A stretch of DNA of 64,000 nucleotides from Poronia punctata (lineage: Eukaryota; Ascomycota; Sordariomycetes; Xylariales; Xylariaceae): the NCBI GenBank assembly GCA_022579005.1, contig MU401600.1, positions 36,653 through 100,652 of the forward strand, given 5' to 3'. Every line of letters starts with the position of its first letter. Position 1 is the first letter of the stretch. Both the position numbers and the translations under genes were made by a program. Below are positions 37,609 through 57,695 of the stretch, one piece after another. The notes beneath the pieces were generated by a model that had not been told where the DNA came from, did no database searches, and was given only the letters and a program-made list of their open reading frames with translations.

Positions 37609-40600
37609 TCATAAACATCTCATCGTGACATTCACACCACCAACATCATCATCATCACCCCCATCATTCAAAAGAGCAAAGATGTAACCCCCCTTCTCAA
37701 CTTCCCACTCATACCCACGATTCAAAATAGCGAGATACCGATCAACTTCCAACTCCATATCAATCATCGCTTCATGTCCCGCATCTATCTCCACCCTCCG
37801 AAACGCCACAAGTTGTCTAACCGGCTGCACGATAGTCGACACGCGCGCAAGGGAATACACCTGCGCGACATAACTCCCCTTTACCGCACCCGTATTCCTC
37901 ACGCGCGCCGAGAAGATGATCGTATCGCCGGCTCTGAACTCTGAACGTGATCCACTTGCCATCGCGTAAAAACCCAGGACTTCGAACTCGGTATACGAAA
38001 GTCCGTAACCAAACGCATACGCGGGCCGGGAATCGACGTCGAGATAATCAACAGACCGCGCTTTCTCCTTGTAGTTATAATACACGGGTATCTGTCCGAC
38101 ATGTCTCGGTACCGAGACAGGCATGCGGCCGCCAGGAGTAACTTTCCCAAACAACACGTCGACGATAGCTTGTCCGCCTGCTTGGCCGGGGAAGAAAGCG
38201 TCCAGGACGGCGGCGCTGCGGGTATAGTACTCGTCGATAGCAAAAGGACGTCCGCCTTGTAGTACGAGGACCACTAGTTTGTTAAGACTGTAAATGGCGC
38301 GGGCGAGTTTATCCTGACTTGGTGGTAGGTCTAGGGTTCCTCTATCGCCGCTTTCGCCGTCGCTGTTCCATGCTGCGCCTACTGCGAGAATGATGAGGTC
38401 TGCCGATTGGGCTGTTTGTATGGCTTGGTCTATTGCGTTGTTCCCGTGGCGGTCGATGAGGTTCCAGAATAGAAGGATTTGGGAATTGAGCGAGTTGACG
38501 TTTGCTGTCTTTTTGTACAGGTTGAAAGCTTGGTACTCGATGCGGAGATGGTATGTCTCCCCCTTTCGGAACGTGAATGGAGCTGAACCGGTAGGGGGTA
38601 GTGTGCTATTGGTTGAGATATAGTCGTGATTCATGATGTTGCCCATGATTGTGCCCGATGTCGAGAGATCCTCTACACCTTGACTGAGGATGAGGTTGTC
38701 GTCTACGAACAGTCGCATTGTGGTGTTCGGCCCAACTGCTACCCCTATCCAACCGTCAATATCAATGTCAACTGGGGAGCGTAAGTCTCCTTCCCAGACG
38801 GCGCTAAAGTTATTGGAGGGTAAGCCATCCGGCGGATAGATGCCCCAATCAAGGGCGGGAACTTCCACCCTGTGAGCTACAGGTTTTGAAAAGTTCGTGT
38901 CGGCAAAGTATGTCGCAGACAAGCCACCCGCAGTGCCGTTTGCTGACAGCAGGTACGGCGGCATCACATATTGTGCGTTGTACTCCCATGTATTCGCACC
39001 CCACGCCGAGATAACTTCGAAATCCTCGTTTTCTGCGTAGGAGACAAGACCTTGCCGGATTGTCTGCGCGGAATCGGCTGGGTATTGGCCCCATGGCCCG
39101 GCGTAATCTCCGTAGTTGAGGACGTCTCCATAAGGCCCGATCAGAGCGATTCGCTTGAGACCTTGAAGCGCGGGGTTTAGCGGGAGTGTATTGTTCCTAT
39201 TCTCCAAAAGTACGATGCTCTTTTGGGCGGCCTCCAGAGCAAGATCGCGGTGGTCATGGACGAGTTGATAAGGATTGACGTCTGTTGGTATGTACTGGAT
39301 AATCAAAGGTTAACTGGCAGTGTTCGGAAGTATATGATATGTCCGGATGTAAGTAAGGGGGATGAGGAGCCATGTTCACTCTCACACACCGGATCCTCAA
39401 ACAGTCCCAGGTCCCATTTGACACCCAGTATCTTCTTGACATGGGATATCAGGATAGAAACATCGAGTGTCTTATTAGCCACCATATCTTTAGTCGCCTA
39501 GTACGACATTAGCTGTAGTTCATGGCAAAATTGATGGCTTCCGGTGGTGTCTATAGCCGGAAGTGAGTCTTACGTTAAGATATATCTCAAGTGGATAGTC
39601 GTAAAACTGCACCATTCCACCTGCAGTAAACCACTGACGGATAGCATCAGCCGGGGAATCAGCAACTCGATGGATAGTGAACAATTCGGACATTCCTATT
39701 CTCTCTAGGTTAGCGCCTCTCTAAACACCGAGACCAACGCAGGGGCGATTATACCGGTGTCATCTCCAATGACAAAACCATCAAAACCCCAGTCATCGAG
39801 GGCTTTGTAGAAAAGGGGGTGCACATGAGCTGGTATATCGTCGAATTCGTTATACGCCCTTGTTATACGTCAGCCCTTCTGTGTTATAGTTCCCTGTGAG
39901 CATCTTACATCATGACACCTCTAGCGCCACCGAGTTGAATCGCCGCCTTGAAAGGCATCAGCAGGTCTTGGAGCACTTGTCTGTTCCCGTGTCCCATAAA
40001 CGGGGCAGTATTGTGTCCTCCTTGCGGTGCTCCGTGAGCAGCAAAATGCTACACAATGACTACCTAGTCAGACGTGATCTACATTTCACCTTTGCGTGGG
40101 GCGCCGACAGAGGGATGGACTTCAGTATAAACGATTGCATGCTTACCTTCAGAACGGGGACGACGGCGTCGGGCTCAGACCAAGACCCATTTTTCGACAG
40201 GCCAGACGCATATGCCACCCCCATGTGAGAAGTGAGTATCTTATCCTCACCCCATGCCTCTGTAAGAATCATACCATACTTTGTTAGAAGGAGATCCTGG
40301 GCTACCTAGTGACTTCCTCAATACGTTCACCATGACACTCACTTACCTTGCATTCGACCCCATCTGGGATCCTGGCCAATATCAAGAACTGGAGAGAGAC
40401 AGGCATGAATCCCAATATATCTGGCTTCCGCACCTATGGCCCTACCTACCCGATGTACCATCTCGGTATCGAAACTTGCCGAGAGGCCTATGCTTTGCGG
40501 AAACATCGACTGCTTGAAGGACCCGACGCCATGAAGGCACTCTCCAATATGCATGAGCGGGACTTTCAGTCTAGCTTTCTGAAGGTTCAAAAGCTGGACC

Positions 40601-48024: not shown

Positions 48025-48637
48025 ATGCGTTCTTTTGCAACGCTCAACATCCTCGCCGCCGCCGTCGGCAGCGTTACAGCCGTCCCTTTCTCCACCCGAG
48101 GCAGCCCGCAACAATCAGGGTTCAACAAGAAATGCGACACCCCCTATTTCTTCGAAGATCCGAAATTCGGGCCCTTCTTTTCCGCCAATTGTAAATCGGG
48201 CAATGACACGAAGGCGAGATACATCCTCAACCTCGACCAGTAAGAGCTCAGATTGTTGTGGATGAGAGAGAGAGAGAAGATTAGGTATTAACGTAAAGCT
48301 TGTGACAATAGCTGTTTCACAAACGATGGGGGTAATATCAAGGGCGGTGAGGAGGGCAACTTCTCGCATACCTGCAACAACATGACATTCTCGGTTACAA
48401 CTAATAACCTCACCGCGTCCTGTAAGCCTCAAGGCACCGGGAATGATCCTATGAACTCTACCATCACACTATGTATGTGTTTTTGCGTCCCACCCACAAC
48501 TCTCTCCCACTCTCTCTATTTTATTTTTACACGGAAATAATGAGACTCTCGACTAACGTTAATTAGCTGATTATATTGGTGCCATGGATGATGGGAATCT
48601 TGTTTGCTATGGGGCGAAAGGCGAGCTGTCAAAGTAG
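48025..48637 (+). CDS. second secreted CVNH-type protein
   Basis: Three exons (48025-48239, 48312-48472, 48567-48637) give 148 aa. The start is placed at the Met heading a signal peptide (MRSFATLNILAAAVGSVTAV) rather than at an upstream in-frame codon. The mature part carries a CVNH-like duplicated pattern. First comes SANCKSGNDTKARYILNLDH with CFTNDGGNIKGG. Then come GNFSHTCNNMTFSV and LTASCKPQGTG, followed by STITLSDYIGAMDDGNLVCY. The repeated Cys, (L/I)xLxxxI and DDGNL/NDGGNI turns match the family; the carbohydrate ligand is unknown. There are several N-glycosylation sequons. It ends 334 bp from the tail of the serine hydrolase gene that opens the putative muropeptide cluster. Confidence 0.75.
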
Positions 48638-48970: not shown

Positions 48971-50299
48971 CTATTGCGGAAATTCAACGTCCCTGCCCAG
49001 AGATGTAGCTACCCACGCACCCAGCGACTCCCTTACAATATTATTACTCGACCAGTTCCTAGACGGATGAGCTCTGTTACTGAAATGCAAGAAGAGCGTG
49101 TTACTAGCCCGGTCAATGACCAGCGACGTGCCAGTAAACCCTGTATGACTAGCCGCCAGCGGATTCGCCATCGGCCCCGCGGTGTAATACTGATTGAGCT
49201 CGAAGCCGATACCATGGGCGGCATCGGCACCGAAACGCTCGTTAAAGTTGGTGAAGATGAGATCGACAGACTCCTGCGAGAGAATACGCTCGCCACCGTA
49301 CGTGCCGTTGTTTAGGATCATCTGGCAGAAAATGGCAGCGTCGTAAACGGTGGAGAACAGGCCCGCGTGGCCGGATACGCCGTTCAGGCCCCATGCGTTC
49401 TCGTCGTGCACGGTACCGCGCACGGGCTGTGGTCGCTCGGGCGCCGCGCCGTCTAGGACGTCGAGTTGGAATTCCTGCGTCGCCATGCGCGAGTAGAAGG
49501 GGAAGTCGGCGCCTTCGACGTTGTCGCGGTTGAAGAATGTGTCTTCCATTCCTAGCAGGGATGTGTATTCGCCGATTACCTCGTCGAGGGGCTTGCCGGT
49601 GACTGCTTCGATAACAAGCATTGTTGTCATGAGGTTGAGGTCAGAGTACGCGTAGGCAGAACCCGGTTCGTTCTGTAACGTCTCATTTAGGATCTTCTGG
49701 GTGCGTGATTCGTATGTCGGGTATACATCCACCATCCAAAGTCCGGGTTCAGGGTCCGGCGCAAGTCCGCTCGTATGCGTTAGAAGTTGTTGGATTGTGA
49801 TTTCCTCCTTGCCGTTTGCTGCGAAGTCCGGGAGATAGGTAGCAACGGTGCCTTCAAGCTCGATCAAACCCTGGTCTATACAGCGGAGGGCGGCGACTGA
49901 CGTAAACAGCTTGGTCAAGCTTGCCAGGTCGTAGATGGTGTCGACAGTAGCCTCCTCTACCTCGCCTGTCGGGAGCTGTTCCTCGACAGAGGCCCAGAGG
50001 TTTCGGTTTCCAAACGCGAAATGGCTCACGATTACACCATTGTGTGCCACGAGAGTGGTACCGCCGGGCTCGATGGGGAGGACCTGGTCATGGGTCTTGG
50101 ATCCCCAGTTTCTCGCCTCGGTGAATTGTGTGAGATTGGTAACCATGGCCTCTAGGGGCTCGGATAACATGCCCACGGATTCGGGCGTCCCTTCAACCAG
50201 CACGTCATCTTCCTGGCGGGCGAACTTTGGAGGCTTTGCAGACGACACTGCGGCCAAGAAGCTGGCCGCAACTGATAGATTCCAAATGAGTGCCACCAT
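48971..50299 (-). CDS. secreted class C beta-lactamase-like serine hydrolase (AmiE-like candidate)
   Basis: An intronless gene of 442 aa. A signal peptide (MVALIWNLSVAASFLAAVSS) precedes a beta-lactamase/penicillin-binding fold. The catalytic set is complete: S127-L-T-K130 in YDLASLTKLFTSVA, Y218-S-D in the YAYSDLNLM loop, and HTGFTGTS near residue 393. QLLTHTSGLAP is another family signature. The fold covers carboxypeptidases, esterases, D-aminopeptidases and the Bacillus muropeptide amidase AmiE (YbbE). The neighbours (NagZ-like, MurQ, amino-sugar kinase) match the genes found with AmiE in Bacillus. I therefore infer that it removes the peptide from MurNAc-peptides outside the cell. An esterase role cannot be excluded from sequence. 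It is divergent from the NagZ-like gene, 1.15 kb apart. The lack of introns agrees with, but does not prove, bacterial descent. Confidence 0.85.
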   Translation of the reverse strand: MVALIWNLSVAASFLAAVSSAKPPKFARQEDDVLVEGTPESVGMLSEPLEAMVTNLTQFTEARNWGSKTHDQVLPIEPGGTTLVAHNGVIVSHFAFGNRNLWASVEEQLPTGEVEEATVDTIYDLASLTKLFTSVAALRCIDQGLIELEGTVATYLPDFAANGKEEITIQQLLTHTSGLAPDPEPGLWMVDVYPTYESRTQKILNETLQNEPGSAYAYSDLNLMTTMLVIEAVTGKPLDEVIGEYTSLLGMEDTFFNRDNVEGADFPFYSRMATQEFQLDVLDGAAPERPQPVRGTVHDENAWGLNGVSGHAGLFSTVYDAAIFCQMILNNGTYGGERILSQESVDLIFTNFNERFGADAAHGIGFELNQYYTAGPMANPLAASHTGFTGTSLVIDRASNTLFLHFSNRAHPSRNWSSNNIVRESLGAWVATSLGRDVEFPQ

Positions 50300-51447
50300 T
50301 TTGATGTCGAGATATCACTCAACCGCTATTGGATGTGCTAACATTTGCAATCGAAAGCTAGACTAGCTAGCTGAAAGACATACATACATGTCTATATGTG
50401 GAAAATGGAACATCGAAACAAACATCTGCGAGGTTGCATCAAGACTGTCGAGCGCCCCCAGGCGGGCCCCGACGACCCCCGGTCATTGTTGGATTCAATT
50501 CCGCGATCTTGACCCACAGATGATGAGGCCCATGCATAGAGGGTAGGATCAGCAACCTGCCCCTGTTCTCCCCATGTCCGGTTGTGGATCGCAAGCAAGT
50601 TTGGGGGATTTTGGTGTTGGGGGTGGGGTTGAAGTTGAGATAGACTTACATGAACTAGATAGGAGACCGAGGCACGCACGAGGAGCTCGCCTAATCTAGA
50701 GTCCTAGACTAACTAACCTATTTCTCTGACGATGGTGATGATGACAAAATGTCGAGAGACAGAATCAGGGCGTTTATCGGTGCTGAGATCCTATCTGCGG
50801 GTTTATCTTGGGGGTTTAATTCGCCATCGGGAAAGGTTTGGGTATTAATTATCTCAATGCTTCACGACATCCGCACATCCGGCAATGAGTCCAGCAAAAC
50901 TGAGGCCGTACTCGTAAGCCCTTGGGAGCTTAGCTCCCCTTATTACCTGGCATATTATGCGGGATGATACGCTAGAAACAAAGGAATATTCGATCAGCTC
51001 CTCGCTATGCGGCTATGCCTATCCTTAACATAATAAGCTTTTGGCGCACTTGGGAAAACGCTTGGCTAATGATTTCCGGCATTTGTACCTAGATATAGAC
51101 AGGCATTTGCCACGAAAGCGAAATACGCATTTATCTAAATTCCTCGGCGAGTTCAGATGTGTGTAAACTATTCCAATTACCTACATGTTATCGCCGCTGA
51201 CGCATGCAGGAAGTTCTAGCCTCAGCCGTGGGGTTTCTGACCCCAAGCTAAGAAGACGAGGATGCAATGTTACATCAATCTTGTAAGGGGATATCGGAAG
51301 GGAGAGATTTGAGGTAGAAGTCTAGGTCAAGCTAGATGGTATATCTCGGTGTAAGAATGTCGACTTTCCCAAGATTTTTAGACACGGTACAGTTTCTAAT
51401 CGACTAGCCCTAGATCTAGTCGTTTTATCACCGAACCCATAGGCATC
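50300..51447. promoter_or_regulatory. intergenic region between divergent serine hydrolase and NagZ-like genes
   Basis: 1.15 kb without a convincing gene separates the two start codons, so both promoters must lie here. CTAGACTAG/CTAGATCTAG words occur near 50361-50370, 50695-50712 and 51400-51420, one set close to each start codon. A shared regulator is plausible but unproven. Confidence 0.45.
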
Positions 51448-52563
51448 ATGTATTTTCGAGCTTCGTTGAGCGCCTCGGTGTGCGCCTTGCTAGCGATTCC
51501 TAGCTTGGCCGCAGTTCCCTCTGGCGTTACCAACAAGGAGCTGCAGATATTGGCCGGAGCACACGTCATCTACTCGTGGCCCAGCACAGTCTCGGCTCCG
51601 GATGAGCTGGTGAATCTTATTCGAAACGGCGTTGTCGGCGGTCTCATCCTCTTCGGAGAGAACGTGGGCACCGGCACGGCAGACGTCCTAGCTTCGTTAC
51701 AATCCGACTATAGTGCCTCGCCGGCCGGCAGTGTATTCAAGAAATACCTGGGCGCGGACGGTCCTCTCTTCATCAACACCGACCAAGAGGGCGGTCAAGT
51801 CCGACGCATCAAGACAGCCGGGCCCATCGAATCGGCCAAGGATACCGGGTCATCCGCACACCCCGCAGTACGCGGGAAGCAAGCCGGCATCGACGCAGCC
51901 GCCGCATTAAGCGGCGCTAACATGAACGGTAACCTTGCACCCGTCCTCGGCGTCTACCGACATGCAGGAGATTTCCTCGACTATTACGAGAGATCGTACG
52001 GCAACACATCGGCCGCCGTGTCCCTCGCTGCCACGGCTTTCATCAAAGCGCAACAAGCGGCCGGCATCCCCGCCACGGCGAAGCACTTCCCCGGTCTGGG
52101 CGCCGCGCTCCACTCGCAGAACACGGACCTCACGCCCGTCACGCTCGACTTGTCCCTCAACGAAATACGCACTGTGGACGAAGCGCCCTACGTCAAAGCG
52201 ATTGCGGCGGGCGTCGAACTGGTGATGCCCTCTTGGGCCATCTACCCCGCGCTCGACTCAGTCCCGGCGGGTCTGAGCAGGAAGTGGGTTACCAATGAAC
52301 TGCGCACGCGGCTGGGTTTCAAGGGCGTGGTCATCACGGACGCGCTGGAGGCGGGCTCTCTGACGCGGTTTGGGGATACGGCTGCTTTGGCTGTGAAGGC
52401 TGCTGGTGCGGGCGTGGATATGTTGCTCGCTAGCGGGAGGAATGTGACGCAGGGTGTGGTGACTAGGAAGGCTGTTGTCGAGGCGCTGCAGAGTGGGACG
52501 TTGGATTGGGATGAGTTTATCGCTTCTTCGAAGAGGATTATCGGGCTGAGGAAGGGGTTGTAG
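51448..52563 (+). CDS. secreted GH3 NagZ-like beta-N-acetylhexosaminidase
   Basis: An intronless gene of 371 aa. The size equals single-domain bacterial NagZ rather than the 700-950 aa fungal GH3 glucosidases. After a signal peptide (MYFRASLSASVCALLAIPSL) the barrel shows VGGLILFGENVGT, PLFINTDQEGGQVRRI, the Lys-His pair in ATAKHFPGLG (K212-H213), VELVMPSWAIYPALD and FKGVVITDALEAGSL, with nucleophile D298. The DQEGG-R and KHFPG motifs bind GlcNAc in NagZ. The expected reaction is removal of beta-linked GlcNAc from GlcNAc-MurNAc fragments, releasing MurNAc or MurNAc-peptide. The usual Asp-x-His acid/base dyad after KHFPGHG is not seen: the loop reads GLGAALHSQNTD. This is common in NagZ relatives outside the canonical clade and may change mechanism or substrate. 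It converges on the MurQ-kinase gene. Confidence 0.88.
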   Translation: MYFRASLSASVCALLAIPSLAAVPSGVTNKELQILAGAHVIYSWPSTVSAPDELVNLIRNGVVGGLILFGENVGTGTADVLASLQSDYSASPAGSVFKKYLGADGPLFINTDQEGGQVRRIKTAGPIESAKDTGSSAHPAVRGKQAGIDAAAALSGANMNGNLAPVLGVYRHAGDFLDYYERSYGNTSAAVSLAATAFIKAQQAAGIPATAKHFPGLGAALHSQNTDLTPVTLDLSLNEIRTVDEAPYVKAIAAGVELVMPSWAIYPALDSVPAGLSRKWVTNELRTRLGFKGVVITDALEAGSLTRFGDTAALAVKAAGAGVDMLLASGRNVTQGVVTRKAVVEALQSGTLDWDEFIASSKRIIGLRKGL

Positions 52564-52955
52564 GCCGTCGTCCAGTACAGGCAATGTGAACTCAACTATA
52601 TTCGCATGTCAATTGAAGATGAGTTCTTTGTAGTAAACAAATAAAAACCATGATTTTTGTTACAAGAGCTGCGACTTATCCGAAGTACTCCCTATAGGCA
52701 CTTGGATAAGCTATTCGACGCTGGGCTGTGGGATATTTTCGCTCTCCTCTCCCGTCGCGGTTTGAGTGTGGAAGATATGTTGTAGGAGGAACGGAAGGGG
52801 CCAACACAGTGCAAAGATGTCACTGAAGTCACTGAAGTCACTGAAGTCACTGGGAAAGTGCGGTTTTGTTACACTGCACAGTACATCACACAGTCACACC
52901 TTCCTCATGGCTCGAGCTTCATCAAACAGATTTCTTTTCTTTTACTTCTGTGTAA
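52564..52955. other. convergent gap with 9-bp tandem repeat
   Basis: 3' flanks of the NagZ-like gene and of the MurQ-kinase gene. It contains about 3.5 copies of the nonamer TCACTGAAG at 52819-52851. Confidence 0.6.
52819..52851. repeat. TCACTGAAG nonamer tandem
   Basis: Three perfect copies and a partial fourth between the convergent NagZ-like and MurQ-kinase genes. No known role. Confidence 0.85.
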
Positions 52956-55146
52956 CTATATGCGACCTAAGAGATATCGAGCTCCCGCAACAGCCGGCTG
53001 GTCCACGCTTTCGATCTTTTGGAATTTGCCACATTTCTCCTCGAGCGCCTTCAACAGCGTCGTTTGGTAGAGGTCGTCTTTCATCATACCACCTGCTAGC
53101 ACGAGACCTGACCTAGCAGGATCGATTCCTCGTCCCCGGACAAGCAGCGCCACCAAGTCTACTAGACTCGAGACGCCTGCGTTCACTATACGCTTGGCAG
53201 TTTCGTCGTCGGAAGCGGCCAAGGATAGGACGAGCTTAGCTACGCCGGCTATGCGTTTTGTCGTAGCAAGCGTGGCATCTTCGGCCTGGTGTAGGGTTGG
53301 GTCCGGGACGAGGATGGTGCTTAGGAGATCTTCTGGTTGGGAATCGGGATAGAGGTCCTTGAAATGCTTGAAGATTGCCTGCGATAGACTCGGCAGTTTA
53401 TCGATCGTGGCAGTGCTTTGTAGTCTGTAGAGATCAGACGAATATAGTGCCGCCCGCAGTGCCTCTCGGCCAATCCCATAACCGGAGCCGTCGTCGCCCA
53501 GGAGGTAACCCCATCCTCCGACGCGGTGTGTTCGTTGGAATTCGCCGTCTACCTTGGAATAACTCATCGCGATGGACCCTGTTCCTGCCACGACGACAAC
53601 CGCCGAGTCGATTTCTTCTTGGTTGGTCACTGACGCTGGGAGGATGTCGATGTCGGTGGTGATTCTCGGTTTTGTGCCTGCTGGGAGATTAATCAGGTCG
53701 GAGAGGGCGCTGTCGATTGCTGAGGTCAGGGACGGCCTGCCGTAACCAGCCATGCCGACCCAGGCGGCAGAGAAGTTGAGTGTGCCCACTTGTTGCCCAT
53801 GGGTCGATTTGCAGTTGTTGATAGCCTCCTGAATTGCCTTGGAAATAGTGGCAATGGCGGCATCGATGCCAATGTTGGTTCTAAGCCGTTTAGCGATGCA
53901 TCTTTTCGAGCTGAGGTGATGAGGAAAAACTTACAAGTTACAAGGGCCGGCGGTACCCATTCCCATCTCTCCGTCCTTTGACATGATGACAGCTTTGCAA
54001 TTGGTACCTCCAGCATCCACGCAAAGGACCAAACCGTCGTTCTGCGTTGCCCGCTGTGTCTCCGTTTCGCGAGCTTCCTCAAAAACGCGGGCAAGGACGC
54101 CCTTGTTGCTTTCAAGGCGCTCTTCTGCTTCCGCCACGGGAACTTTCAGGACGATGGTTACGGCAGCTAATTTGACGCTCCCGCGACAGCTTTCCAGAAT
54201 CTGGTCTAGCTCTACATCGGACTGCGTACGAACGTCGCCGCCGACGAAGCGAAGAATGTTTCGGGCTCGTTGCTTTAGTTTGAGGTTGGTGGCTTTCACG
54301 TCAATCATCTGTGCTTGTTAGCCAGACAGATTTGTAACATTGGTAATAGAGCAGAGCATGTCAGAAAACGAACCAAGTTTCCATAGGTTTTGCCGAGCTT
54401 GATCATTACACCAGTGCTGATCATATTCAGCACCAACTTCGTCGCCGTCCCGGCCTTCATCCTCGTGCTACCGGTGACAACCTCGGGCCCCGTAACAGCG
54501 GGGATGAGGTAGTCGGCATTACCCTCTTGGCCGATGGCCGAAGGCGAGACGCAAACAAGCCCGACAGTAGTGGCACCTATTGACTTCATATAAGACAGAC
54601 CACCCAGGACATAGGGAGTGCGACCGGAGGATGCGATTCCAATTAGCGAGTCCACCTTGGGGTTCAAGTTGAAGGGCTGTAGATCGACTTCTGCTGCGTT
54701 CCTGTCATCTTCGGCGCCTTCTTTGGCGTGGCGAAGGGCATGATCACCGCCGGCTATCAAAGCTATGAATTGGCCTGGCGGTGCGGAGTATGTGGGCGGT
54801 ATCTCGGATGCATCGAGGACACCTAATCTGTGTCATACACAGATCGCGGTCAGTCAACACTTAAATGCACCTTATATTTAATAGACGGTTTAGAGGAGGC
54901 TCGTTACCTTCCACTAGTGCCGGCACCTATATAAAAGACCCGGCCCCCTTTGCGCACGCGTTCCGATAAAGTGTCTATCACCTCGGCAATCACCGGGAGG
55001 CATGATTCGACGGCAGCGGGCACATCCCGGTCCTCCCGGTTGAGGATCCGGCAGAGCTCGACAGTCGGGACACGGTCAATGTTTGCTGACCGGGCGTTTC
55101 GGTTCTCCGTCTGCAGGCCCGCAAGCTGGATGACAGGTGTGGACAT
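52956..55146 (-). CDS. murQ: fused MurNAc-6-phosphate etherase (MurQ) and BadF/NAGK-type sugar kinase
   Basis: Four exons (55146-54908, 54827-54374, 54308-53935, 53880-52956) with introns of 80, 65 and 54 bp give 663 aa. Residues 1 to about 300 are MurQ. The signatures are [60 protein letters not shown] and [17 protein letters not shown]; then [14 protein letters not shown] and a helical C-terminal domain. The two catalytic Glu align as E88 (DASE) and E119 (EGAED), with the same spacing of 31 as in bacterial MurQ. From about residue 322 a BadF/BcrA/NAGK kinase begins: [69 protein letters not shown] and VLAGGMM. It should phosphorylate MurNAc (and perhaps GlcNAc) and cleave the lactyl ether to GlcNAc-6-phosphate plus D-lactate in the cytosol. 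The second intron uses a GTTCGT donor; the join rests on it and on the MurQ tail encoded after it. Confidence 0.88.
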
Positions 55147-56108
55147 GGCTGCGGCTCTATCTCGTCACCCTTGTCGCAAGATCTCTGGGCAAGGATTATT
55201 ATCGAGATTGTGGGCAACAAGAAGATACCCAACGAAGGTGCGTATGTATCAGTTATTTCTTATCACAGGCTGGCTTGGTTACGATCATGGAAAATCTATT
55301 TCTAAACATTTTGTGATCTACATACGGCAGGTCCCGAGATACAGAGACGGAAACAACACCGACACCGGTAACCTGTTTTCTGTCATCTTGGCCCGTTTCT
55401 TTTACGGCCTTTTGCGGGCCTGAGAATTATATTTTCTTTCTATTTCCAAGGACTGTAAATGGGGACCATCGAACCCCCCACTACAGTTTGAGGCGGAAGA
55501 ACATGCCGGTGGAGATGGCCGATGCGCAACTCCATACCTACCTAGTGCATTGGCTTTCCTCGTGGCAATTAGGTACCTACTCTTAGCAGTTGGCCAACCA
55601 GGTAAGTTGCTTTCAAGTGCTTACGAGCACATCAGAAGATGTAATTTGTTTGTTGCGAGTAATGTGATGGCGGATCTATTCTCCTTTGCTTCAATTTTAC
55701 GTGCGTACAGATCTTCAAGGGTTAGTGATCTCCGCAATCCTTATCTGCATCTGCTTTTCCGTAGGTAGCGGAATTTTGGCGCGCCAGGGCTGCCAGGTAA
55801 CAGGTTGGAGGGAAGGATTTTGGGGAAATGTAACGTGCCTATCAGATCGTACCCGTTTTGGGACTGCGGATACCCTCACGACGACACACCTGCTTTCTTG
55901 GGGATATATGGGGTATATGGGGTATATGGGGGCGGCGACGCCCGCTCATAACCCGTTTCGAACCGTTCTGTCGGGTCTGATAATCAGTAGAAGTAAGCGG
56001 TTTTATTACCTACCTTACTTTGAGATTCGATCTGTGGTTGTGAGATTCGGGAAAGCTGACGAGATCTCGCAACATCCAAGGGGGCAGAAAGAGAAGAACA
56101 AAGACACA
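55147..56108. promoter_or_regulatory. intergenic region between divergent MurQ-kinase and UNC93-like genes
   Basis: 0.96 kb holds both promoters of the second divergent pair. A CGG-N8-CCG inverted triplet (55348-55361) fits a Zn2Cys6 regulator site, but such triplets are frequent by chance. A GGTATATGG triplication lies at about 55908-55930. No gene is supported here. Confidence 0.4.
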
Positions 56109-57695
56109 ATGTCGACCCAAGTAAAGGAGTCGTCTCCGGCTGGAGAGGCACAGGCCGAACATCAACAGCAACTTCCGGGCGAGCGACACTCGTCCAAAAT
56201 CGTGCGCTTCTATTCTCATCCATGGACGCAGATCATACTCATCAGCCTCATCTGTTTCTGTCTTCCAGGCGTAAGTCCACCACTTTCAAACCAACCCTCC
56301 CGTGTCCAAACCCGGTTTCCTAGGTTAATCCATTAATTGCAGATTTACAATGCTCTGGTTGGTATCGGAGGCTCAGGTCAGGTCGACCCGACGGTCGCGG
56401 CCAATGCCACAGTCGCGCTCCTGGCCACAACAGCGGCCACGGCCCTATTCATCGTCGGCCCAATCTTCTCGTGGGTTGGACCGCGCATCTGCTTCTTGAT
56501 CGGCGGGTGGACATACGCTTTGTACACTGGTAGCTTGCTGCATTTCAACCACCATCCCGATGACGGCTCATTCGTCATCGCCTCGGGCGCCATCCTAGGT
56601 GTCGGCGCGTCTTTCATCTGGATCGTACAAGGCGCCATCATGACCACATACGTAGACGAATCGCAAAAGGGTAGGGCCATTGCCGTTTTCTGGATCATCT
56701 TCAACCTCGGCGGTGGTATCGGATCCCTAGTCTCCTTTGGCCTAAACTATAACTCCAAGAGCGGCACCGTCACAGACTCGACTTATATCGCTCTTATGGT
56801 CATCATGATCTTTGGTTACTTCCTCGGTCTATTCATCTGTTCGCCTTCGCGCATTCGGCTGACTCAGTTAAACCGAGCTGTCGAGACGGAGAAGAGAAGC
56901 GTCAAAGGCACCGCCATCATGGCTATCAAGACGCTCAGCAAGTGGCGCGTGGCGTGTAGTACGTAGCCACTCAGATTTTCTCCTTTTTTTTATTTAAATA
57001 TGATTACTAACATGATATCAGTGATCCCTCTCTTCTTCTCCGCCAACGTATTCTACAGCTACCAGCAAAACGAAGTCAACGGTCGAACCTTCAACATCCG
57101 CACCCGTTCCCTAAACGGCGCATTCTACTGGATCGCCCAAATGCTCGGCGGCCTATTCATCGGTCTCATCCTCGACATGCCATGGTTCAGCCGAGGAGTG
57201 CGCGCGCGCGTCGGCTGGGTCATCCTCCTAGTCACCGGAATGGCCATCTGGGGCGGCGGCTACGCCTTCCAACTATGGGAGAACAAACGCCTAGCGCTCG
57301 GTCTGGTGCAAGATATCGATTACACGCAGGGCAATATCTCGACGGGTCCCATCTTCTTATACATCTTCTACGGCACGTATGATGCGCTATGGCAAGGGTT
57401 CGCGTACTGGCTCATCGGCACCGAGTCGAATAGCACGGCGCGCGCTGCCGTCCTCGTGGGCGCCTACAAGACTTTCCAGGCTACAGGAGGCGCGATGGCG
57501 TGGCGGATTAATGCGTTGCATAAGAGTCCGCTGACGCAGTTGGGTATGAATTGGGGTTTGTGTATTGGGTCGCTTATCTTTGTGTTGCCTACTGTGTGGA
57601 CGGTTTCGGATCATACTGCTGCTGAGGCGGAGGCTGGGTATGAGGGGGAGAAGAGGGATGAGCCTCATAAGACGATGGAGGATGCTGAGGTTTAG
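56109..57695 (+). CDS. UNC93-like major facilitator transporter
   Basis: Three exons (56109-56270, 56343-56958, 57022-57695) with introns of 72 and 63 bp encode 483 aa. The Met at 56109 heads a hydrophilic N-tail (MSTQVKESSPAGEAQAEHQQ); an upstream in-frame extension is less likely. About eleven or twelve membrane spans follow. UNC93/DUF895-type features are the first span WTQIILISLICFCLPGIYNAL, GIGGSGQVDP, the loop YVDESQKGRAIAVFWIIFNLGGGIGS, a NEVNGRTFNIRTRSLNGAFYWI segment after the central loop, and GSLIFVLP near the end. The C-tail is acidic. In fungi such proteins sit in the plasma membrane and their substrates are largely unknown. Because it shares a promoter region with the MurQ-kinase gene, uptake of MurNAc, GlcNAc-MurNAc or a related amino sugar is the natural hypothesis; it is inference from context only. 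Confidence 0.88.

Follow-up and report, generated by a model that had tools for sequence, protein, structure and literature searches.

The subject of this computational analysis is a run of four consecutive genes in the ascomycete Poronia punctata (Sordariomycetes, Xylariales), located in a stretch of 64,000 nucleotides (contig MU401600.1, positions 36,653 to 100,652; hereafter the window) within a 45-Mb genome. The genes encode an S12 serine hydrolase, a glycoside hydrolase of family 3 (GH3), a MurQ etherase fused to an amino-sugar kinase, and a membrane protein, and are examined here as a candidate set for the salvage of N-acetylmuramic acid (MurNAc) and muropeptides. An earlier note on this DNA had placed four such genes here; their presence is confirmed by clean gene models (all four spliced frames are free of stops and 5 of 5 introns run from GT to AG) and by Pfam matches above the curated cut-offs. 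The features of the locus, in window coordinates, are the following.

48971..50299, minus strand: S12 (beta-lactamase-fold) serine hydrolase, PBP4B/YfeW-like, secreted-looking; 442 aa, one exon
50300..51447, no strand: divergent promoter region between the hydrolase and GH3 genes, from the gene models
51448..52563, plus strand: single-domain GH3, secreted-looking, with a NagZ-like fold; 371 aa, one exon
52956..55146, minus strand: MurQ etherase fused to a BadF-family amino-sugar kinase; 663 aa, four exons
55146-54908, 54827-54374, 54308-53935, 53880-52956, minus strand: exons of the MurQ-kinase gene, with three introns
54194..55146 (approximate), minus strand: MurQ half, about residues 1-315, two introns inside; from the alignment with solved MurQ 4s12
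52956..54180 (approximate), minus strand: kinase half, about residues 320-663, one intron inside; from the PF01869 match at residues 328-656
55147..56108, no strand: divergent promoter region between the MurQ-kinase and MFS genes, from the gene models
56109..57695, plus strand: UNC93/MFS-type membrane protein, candidate MurNAc importer; 483 aa, role guessed from position
56109-56270, 56343-56958, 57022-57695, plus strand: exons of the MFS gene, with two introns

Orientation alternates along the cluster, with the hydrolase on the minus strand, GH3 on the plus, MurQ-kinase on the minus and the MFS gene on the plus, forming two divergent pairs. The two divergent promoter regions have one 10-mer in common, versus 2.2 on average over 200 mononucleotide shuffles, and no long shared word. 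The spliced MurQ-kinase agrees at all 663 residues (100% identity) with a database protein named as from Poronia punctata. A crude hydropathy test, which is not a signal-peptide predictor, detected a hydrophobic N-terminal stretch in the hydrolase and in GH3 and none in the MurQ-kinase. Contamination is an unlikely source of these genes in view of the introns, the 45-Mb genome and the many fungal orthologues.

Membership of the N-terminal half of the fusion in the MurQ family is solid by sequence comparison. This half (approximately residues 6-311) passes three NCBIfam MurQ models with 342-359 bits against cut-offs of 168-302, including the equivalog model TIGR00274 (341.6 bits, cut-off 302). 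Residues 6-304 align with the solved MurQ 4s12 over nearly the whole length of MurQ; solved MurQ chains score 253-255 bits, and chains of the glucokinase regulatory protein GKRP at most 72.4. Glu88 and Glu119 align with the catalytic pair of MurQ, and are found in 113/113 and 116/116, respectively, of the fungal sequences with a letter at that position (out of 120 aligned). Searched with the SIS model, the genome yielded this MurQ and no other. In Pfam the fusion matches BcrAD_BadFG (PF01869, 99.6 bits) and GKRP_SIS_N (80.2 bits), both above the curated cut-offs. The description in the earlier note of a MurQ etherase joined to an amino-sugar kinase is thus borne out by the TIGR00274 score, the invariant glutamates and the PF01869 match.

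By its motif, the C-terminal half appears to be a MurK-like kinase. The signature GGWGxxxGDxGS recurs in seven of the nine kinases encoded within about 7 kb of a bacterial murQ (those of loci L038 and L039 differ) and in the solved MurNAc/GlcNAc kinase 8zo3 (GlcNAc, N-acetylglucosamine). A threonine directly precedes the catalytic Asp of the fused kinase, and the second sugar site has a small GG pair. The equivalent of this threonine is T94 in the MurK of Tannerella (PMC10465942). Because the position varies among the fungal sequences (see below), a preference of the fused kinase for MurNAc is no more than plausible.

The hydrolase belongs to family PF00144 (180.4 bits, above the curated cut-off) and contains all of the PBP4B/YfeW motifs, S-x-x-K, YSD and HTG; residues S127, K130, Y218, S219 and H385 are invariant in 120/120 aligned hydrolases. 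The signal-like N-terminus is also seen, by the hydropathy test, in 92 of the 118 homologues with a start Met. Relatives of the hydrolase lie close to murQ in Escherichia coli, Thermomicrobium roseum and two Propionibacteriaceae; others, on plasmids of Streptomyces, Salmonella and Priestia, do not adjoin murQ. One further match, H14 (NZ_CP013419.1, 71535-72437), from Burkholderia savannae, falls within a gene whose annotation names a NamZ (exo-muramidase) domain. Next to the hydrolase gene in Poronia lies a frame for a small, secreted-looking cyanovirin-N-like lectin (CVNH; 48025-48637, plus strand, 148 aa, 44.1 bits), which may bind glycans.

GH3 matches PF00933 with 171.1 bits (above the curated cut-off), and D298, the catalytic Asp of the GH3 barrel, is present in 119/120 aligned sequences. 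Its structure model, with a mean predicted local distance difference test score (pLDDT) of 86.6 and the catalytic loops weakest, matches GH3 N-acetylglucosaminidases, among them B. subtilis NagZ. Within the plasmid collection, the bacterial proteins nearest to it come from Streptomycetaceae (47.5-49.3% identity), and the TD motif of the fungal loop is shared by both Streptomycetaceae GH3 proteins whose loop was read. In Streptomyces sp. NBC_01324 (L064, 4851-6984), a GH25 lysozyme gene adjoins the gene of a GH3 that shares 49% identity and the NTD loop with the fungal protein. Elsewhere in the window, outside the cluster, an open frame at 37609-39306 (minus strand) encodes GH3 C-terminal, PA14 and Fn3-like domains.

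The membrane protein scores above the curated cut-offs for MFS_1 (42.8 bits) and UNC-93 (43.0 bits). Its nearest MFS paralogue in the genome is 41% identical (C118:63842-64921), and nothing was recognised among the open frames surrounding that paralogue. To call the UNC93/MFS protein a MurNAc importer is a guess from its position.

Relatives were collected as the best 120 protein matches to each of the MurQ-kinase, the hydrolase and GH3 (119 non-self entries per list), that is, for the three enzymes of the cluster. Every named entry among the best 120 MurQ-kinase matches is a fungus by name, and the fusion occurs among them in four classes of Pezizomycotina, namely Sordariomycetes (Xylaria, Coniochaeta, Metarhizium), Leotiomycetes (Cadophora), Dothideomycetes (Zasmidium) and Eurotiomycetes (Talaromyces, Aspergillus), the class having been looked up for four of the species. 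Two genes were taken to share a contig when their entries gave the same longest-contig size, some entries representing more than one contig. Counted in this way, with metagenome entries included, the best-120 lists contain 19 contigs shared by MurQ and the hydrolase, 8 by MurQ and GH3, 19 by the hydrolase and GH3, and 3 by all three genes (Xylariaceae sp. FL0594, Apodospora peruviana and Purpureocillium takamizusanense). Among 30 named organisms present in both the MurQ and the hydrolase lists (names matched by eye), the two genes fall on one contig in 19, against 1.7 expected by chance for a 35-Mb genome; seven of these shared contigs are less than 200 kb long. Judged by locus tags, the two genes adjoin each other in Xylaria hypoxylon, X. 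multiplex, X. curta and Nemania bipapillata; in Zasmidium cellare and two Cadophora their tags differ by two or three. Shared contigs were found in all four fungal classes.

In a tree of 66 MurQ domains, 30 fungal sequences chosen from the 120 form one clade with 100/100 support. The bacteria, sampled through six short patterns, supply as sister group four sequences of Veillonellaceae/Acidaminococcaceae, with support of only 84/73; any bacterial donor of MurQ named from this tree would be tentative. The single fungal clade fits one bacterial origin before the classes parted, or a later spread among fungi.

Genes that could act upstream and downstream of the cluster are found on other contigs of the same genome. 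Two matches to GH25 (Chalaropsis-type lysozyme) exceed the cut-off (C62:2372-2836 and C67:81339-81800); digestion of peptidoglycan by fungal GH25 enzymes is described in PMC7954357. There is one match to the S66 peptidases of the LD-carboxypeptidase/MccF family (C286:36749-37120, 90.7 bits). On contig C30, a stretch at about 134-154 kb (L045, L046, L058) holds genes of GlcNAc catabolism: a deaminase (above its cut-off), a hexokinase, an NDT80-type regulator, GH3-GNAT pieces and a deacetylase. The regulator is reminiscent of RON1 of the Trichoderma GlcNAc cluster (PMC4950302). Since this stretch has a hexokinase of its own, GlcNAc can probably be handled without the fused kinase, a point in favor of MurNAc as the substrate of the latter. 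FAD-oxidase_C is matched at three sites, and a D-lactate dehydrogenase could be among them. No match to AnmK was found in the fungal genome. From these sequences a route from the bacterial wall to fructose-6-phosphate can be drawn.

We consider it likely that the locus is a eukaryotic cluster for the salvage of MurNAc and muropeptides, assembled from genes of bacterial type. This reading is favored because the MurQ half belongs to the equivalog family, the catalytic residues are conserved and the genes are linked in relatives; because kinases and hydrolases of these families also occur in some bacterial murQ loci; and because genes for GlcNAc catabolism are present in the same genome. Outside the cell, muramidases would cut the bacterial wall into disaccharide-peptides, from which the S12 hydrolase would remove or trim the peptide and GH3 would remove GlcNAc. 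MurNAc would then enter the cell, possibly through the UNC93/MFS protein, although this step is a guess. The kinase half would make MurNAc-6-phosphate, as its family and position suggest, and the MurQ half would, on stronger grounds, split this product into GlcNAc-6-phosphate and D-lactate. The deacetylase and deaminase encoded on the other contig would finally yield fructose-6-phosphate.

Several observations weigh against this reading. The score of GH3 against the NagZ model is 127.8 bits, below the cut-off of 207. The acid/base dyad of NagZ is Asp-x-His, located in the KHFPGHG loop; this dyad is missing from 120/120 fungal GH3 sequences, which have (N/D)TD instead, the DSH of NagZ aligning with SQN. 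Without Asp-x-His, the acid/base residue of the fungal enzyme must differ, and D227 is the natural candidate. The missing dyad constitutes the main mechanistic gap in the scheme and possibly marks a new catalytic variant. The best of 30 NCBIfam matches of the hydrolase is PBP4B at 158.6 bits, below the cut-off of 385, and its structure model (pLDDT 87.0) matches esterases, acyltransferases and DD-peptidases alike. These matches fail to tell an amidase from a peptidase or an esterase, any of which the hydrolase could be. In the kinase half, the position just before the catalytic Asp (117 fungal sequences with a letter there) holds N in 56 sequences, T in 42 and A in 14; N is the residue of GlcNAc kinases. 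The deacetylase on C30 scores below its bacterial cut-off. As to linkage, MurQ and the hydrolase are on different contigs in 11 of the 30 organisms, and the genes travel mostly as pairs, not as an unchanging set of four. The hydrolase is with GH3, and MurQ elsewhere, in Beauveria bassiana ARSEF 2860 and in Conoideocrella. Xylaria accounts for 14 of the best 120 MurQ entries and for none of the best 120 GH3 entries by name, where Penicillium proteins of 51-56% identity appear; GH3 entries without a name could still be from Xylaria. The earlier note had called the pathway complete. That is too strong with GH3 failing the NagZ criteria, the hydrolase reaction ambiguous, the transporter only a candidate and the genes mostly paired in relatives. 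Its core idea of a fungal muropeptide salvage set is supported by MurQ membership, conserved residues, linkage in relatives, the bacterial murQ loci and the GlcNAc genes; its interpretation as a whole is supported in part. Likewise, the NagZ-like GH3 keeps its barrel, catalytic Asp and NagZ-type fold and loses the NagZ assignment proper; the secreted beta-lactamase-like hydrolase keeps its family and its secreted-looking N-terminus, with model matches too undiscriminating to sustain a specificity for muropeptides; and the conserved co-location that the note had looked to in relatives holds for pairs of MurQ, hydrolase and GH3, the three being together on three contigs only.

Among known systems, the cluster would work like bacterial MurNAc salvage, the nearest layout seen being that of T. 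roseum (L067, 5968-13045), with murQ, a BadF kinase, GH20, AnmK, an S12 hydrolase and nagA. As in the fungus, MurQ goes with a BadF-family kinase (the two genes overlap), the S12 hydrolase is 33% identical, and a hexosaminidase and nagA are nearby; unlike in the fungus, murQ and the kinase are separate genes, the hexosaminidase is a GH20, AnmK is present and no shared transporter was seen. In E. coli (murR / murQ-murP-yfeW), a PBP4B-type S12 hydrolase 31.8% identical to the fungal one is encoded 1.5 kb beyond murQ, with murP between; the operon is described in PMC5061867. There, however, a phosphotransferase system (PTS) phosphorylates MurNAc during import, with no kinase, no GH3 and no fusion, and the operon also serves the recycling of the cell's own wall. 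The Bacillus subtilis genes murQ-murR-murP-amiE-nagZ-ybbC provide MurQ plus an amidase, AmiE, and a GH3, NagZ, both acting on muropeptides outside the cell (PMC5061867). MurQ, a hydrolase and a GH3 are common to both, AmiE being likened to the fungal hydrolase by function and not by sequence; for ybbC, no NamZ_N (YbbC-type) counterpart was matched in the fungal genome. B. subtilis NagZ has the Asp-x-His that the fungal GH3 lacks. The Bacillus parallel, already drawn in the earlier note, fits in gene content and differs at uptake, which is through a PTS without a kinase in B. subtilis (PMC5061867) and would need the MFS protein and the kinase here. In the MurT-MurQ-MurK system of Tannerella forsythia, exogenous MurNAc is taken up, a kinase phosphorylates it and MurQ receives the product (PMC10465942); the proteins are separate, and the bacterium is unable to make MurNAc.

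A kinase and MurQ in one open frame also occur in a Verrucomicrobia locus (L039), with the kinase first; because the domain order is reversed, this fusion is probably independent of the fungal one. Camponotini ants have a bacterial murQ of Mollicutes origin, a kinase fusion or cluster going unmentioned in the accessible part of PMC13320244, where this 2026 paper states that transfer of murQ had not been reported before. The Trichoderma RON1 GlcNAc cluster, whose counterpart genes in Poronia occupy the separate locus on C30, would take over GlcNAc-6-phosphate; the terms muramic, peptidoglycan and MurNAc are absent from the text of PMC4950302 as available. A search of titles and abstract beginnings, with few subscription journals covered, found no fungal MurNAc pathway.

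An unlikely alternative takes the fusion for a GlcNAc kinase that carries a regulatory domain for sensing sugar phosphates, as in vertebrate GKRP, and serves in chitin or GlcNAc metabolism instead of peptidoglycan use. Database entries are named 'glucokinase regulator', the Pfam domain takes its name from GKRP, GlcNAc kinases are among the members of the kinase family, and the asparagine before the catalytic Asp in 56/117 sequences points the same way, as does the placing of a Monascus murQ gene within chitin biosynthesis in PMC9159588. However, the MurQ models are passed with 342-359 bits (cut-offs 168-302), far above GKRP, the aligned catalytic glutamates never vary, a hexokinase is already present in the GlcNAc-gene stretch, and the fusion gene is linked to those of secreted hydrolases. 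A role as a GKRP-like regulator only is disfavored by the MurQ scores, the solved-chain scores and the conserved glutamates. It seems quite improbable, too, that the etherase has a damaged metabolite or another amino sugar of the 3-O-lactyl type as its substrate and that the hydrolase and GH3 serve another glycan. The divergent GH3 loop and a possible esterase activity of the hydrolase would suit such a scheme; against it, the closest Streptomyces GH3 with annotated neighbors adjoins a GH25 lysozyme gene, and hydrolase relatives are in or near bacterial murQ loci.

That the four genes are chance neighbors without a joint function is very improbable. The linkage evidence covers the three enzyme genes; MurQ and the hydrolase are separated in the 11 organisms mentioned above, and the GH3-C/PA14 protein at 37609-39306 shows that the window also holds an unrelated gene. 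Nonetheless, pairwise linkage recurs across four fungal classes, and for the hydrolase, GH3 and MurQ the chance explanation is largely refuted.

Returning to the salvage of bacterial-wall sugar, we regard as evenly balanced the wider proposition that many Pezizomycotina run a dedicated pathway of this kind, in which a MurQ-MurK fusion would turn MurNAc into GlcNAc-6-phosphate and a GH3 of the (N/D)TD type would cut muropeptides. Soil scientists use muramic acid as an indicator of dead bacterial matter. If the proposition is true, fungi are consumers of bacterial remains down to muramic acid itself, and an etherase-kinase conserved across Ascomycota would make them direct consumers of the bacterial wall sugar. 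A salvage role would also explain a large protein family that is now named 'glucokinase regulator' or filed under chitin synthesis.

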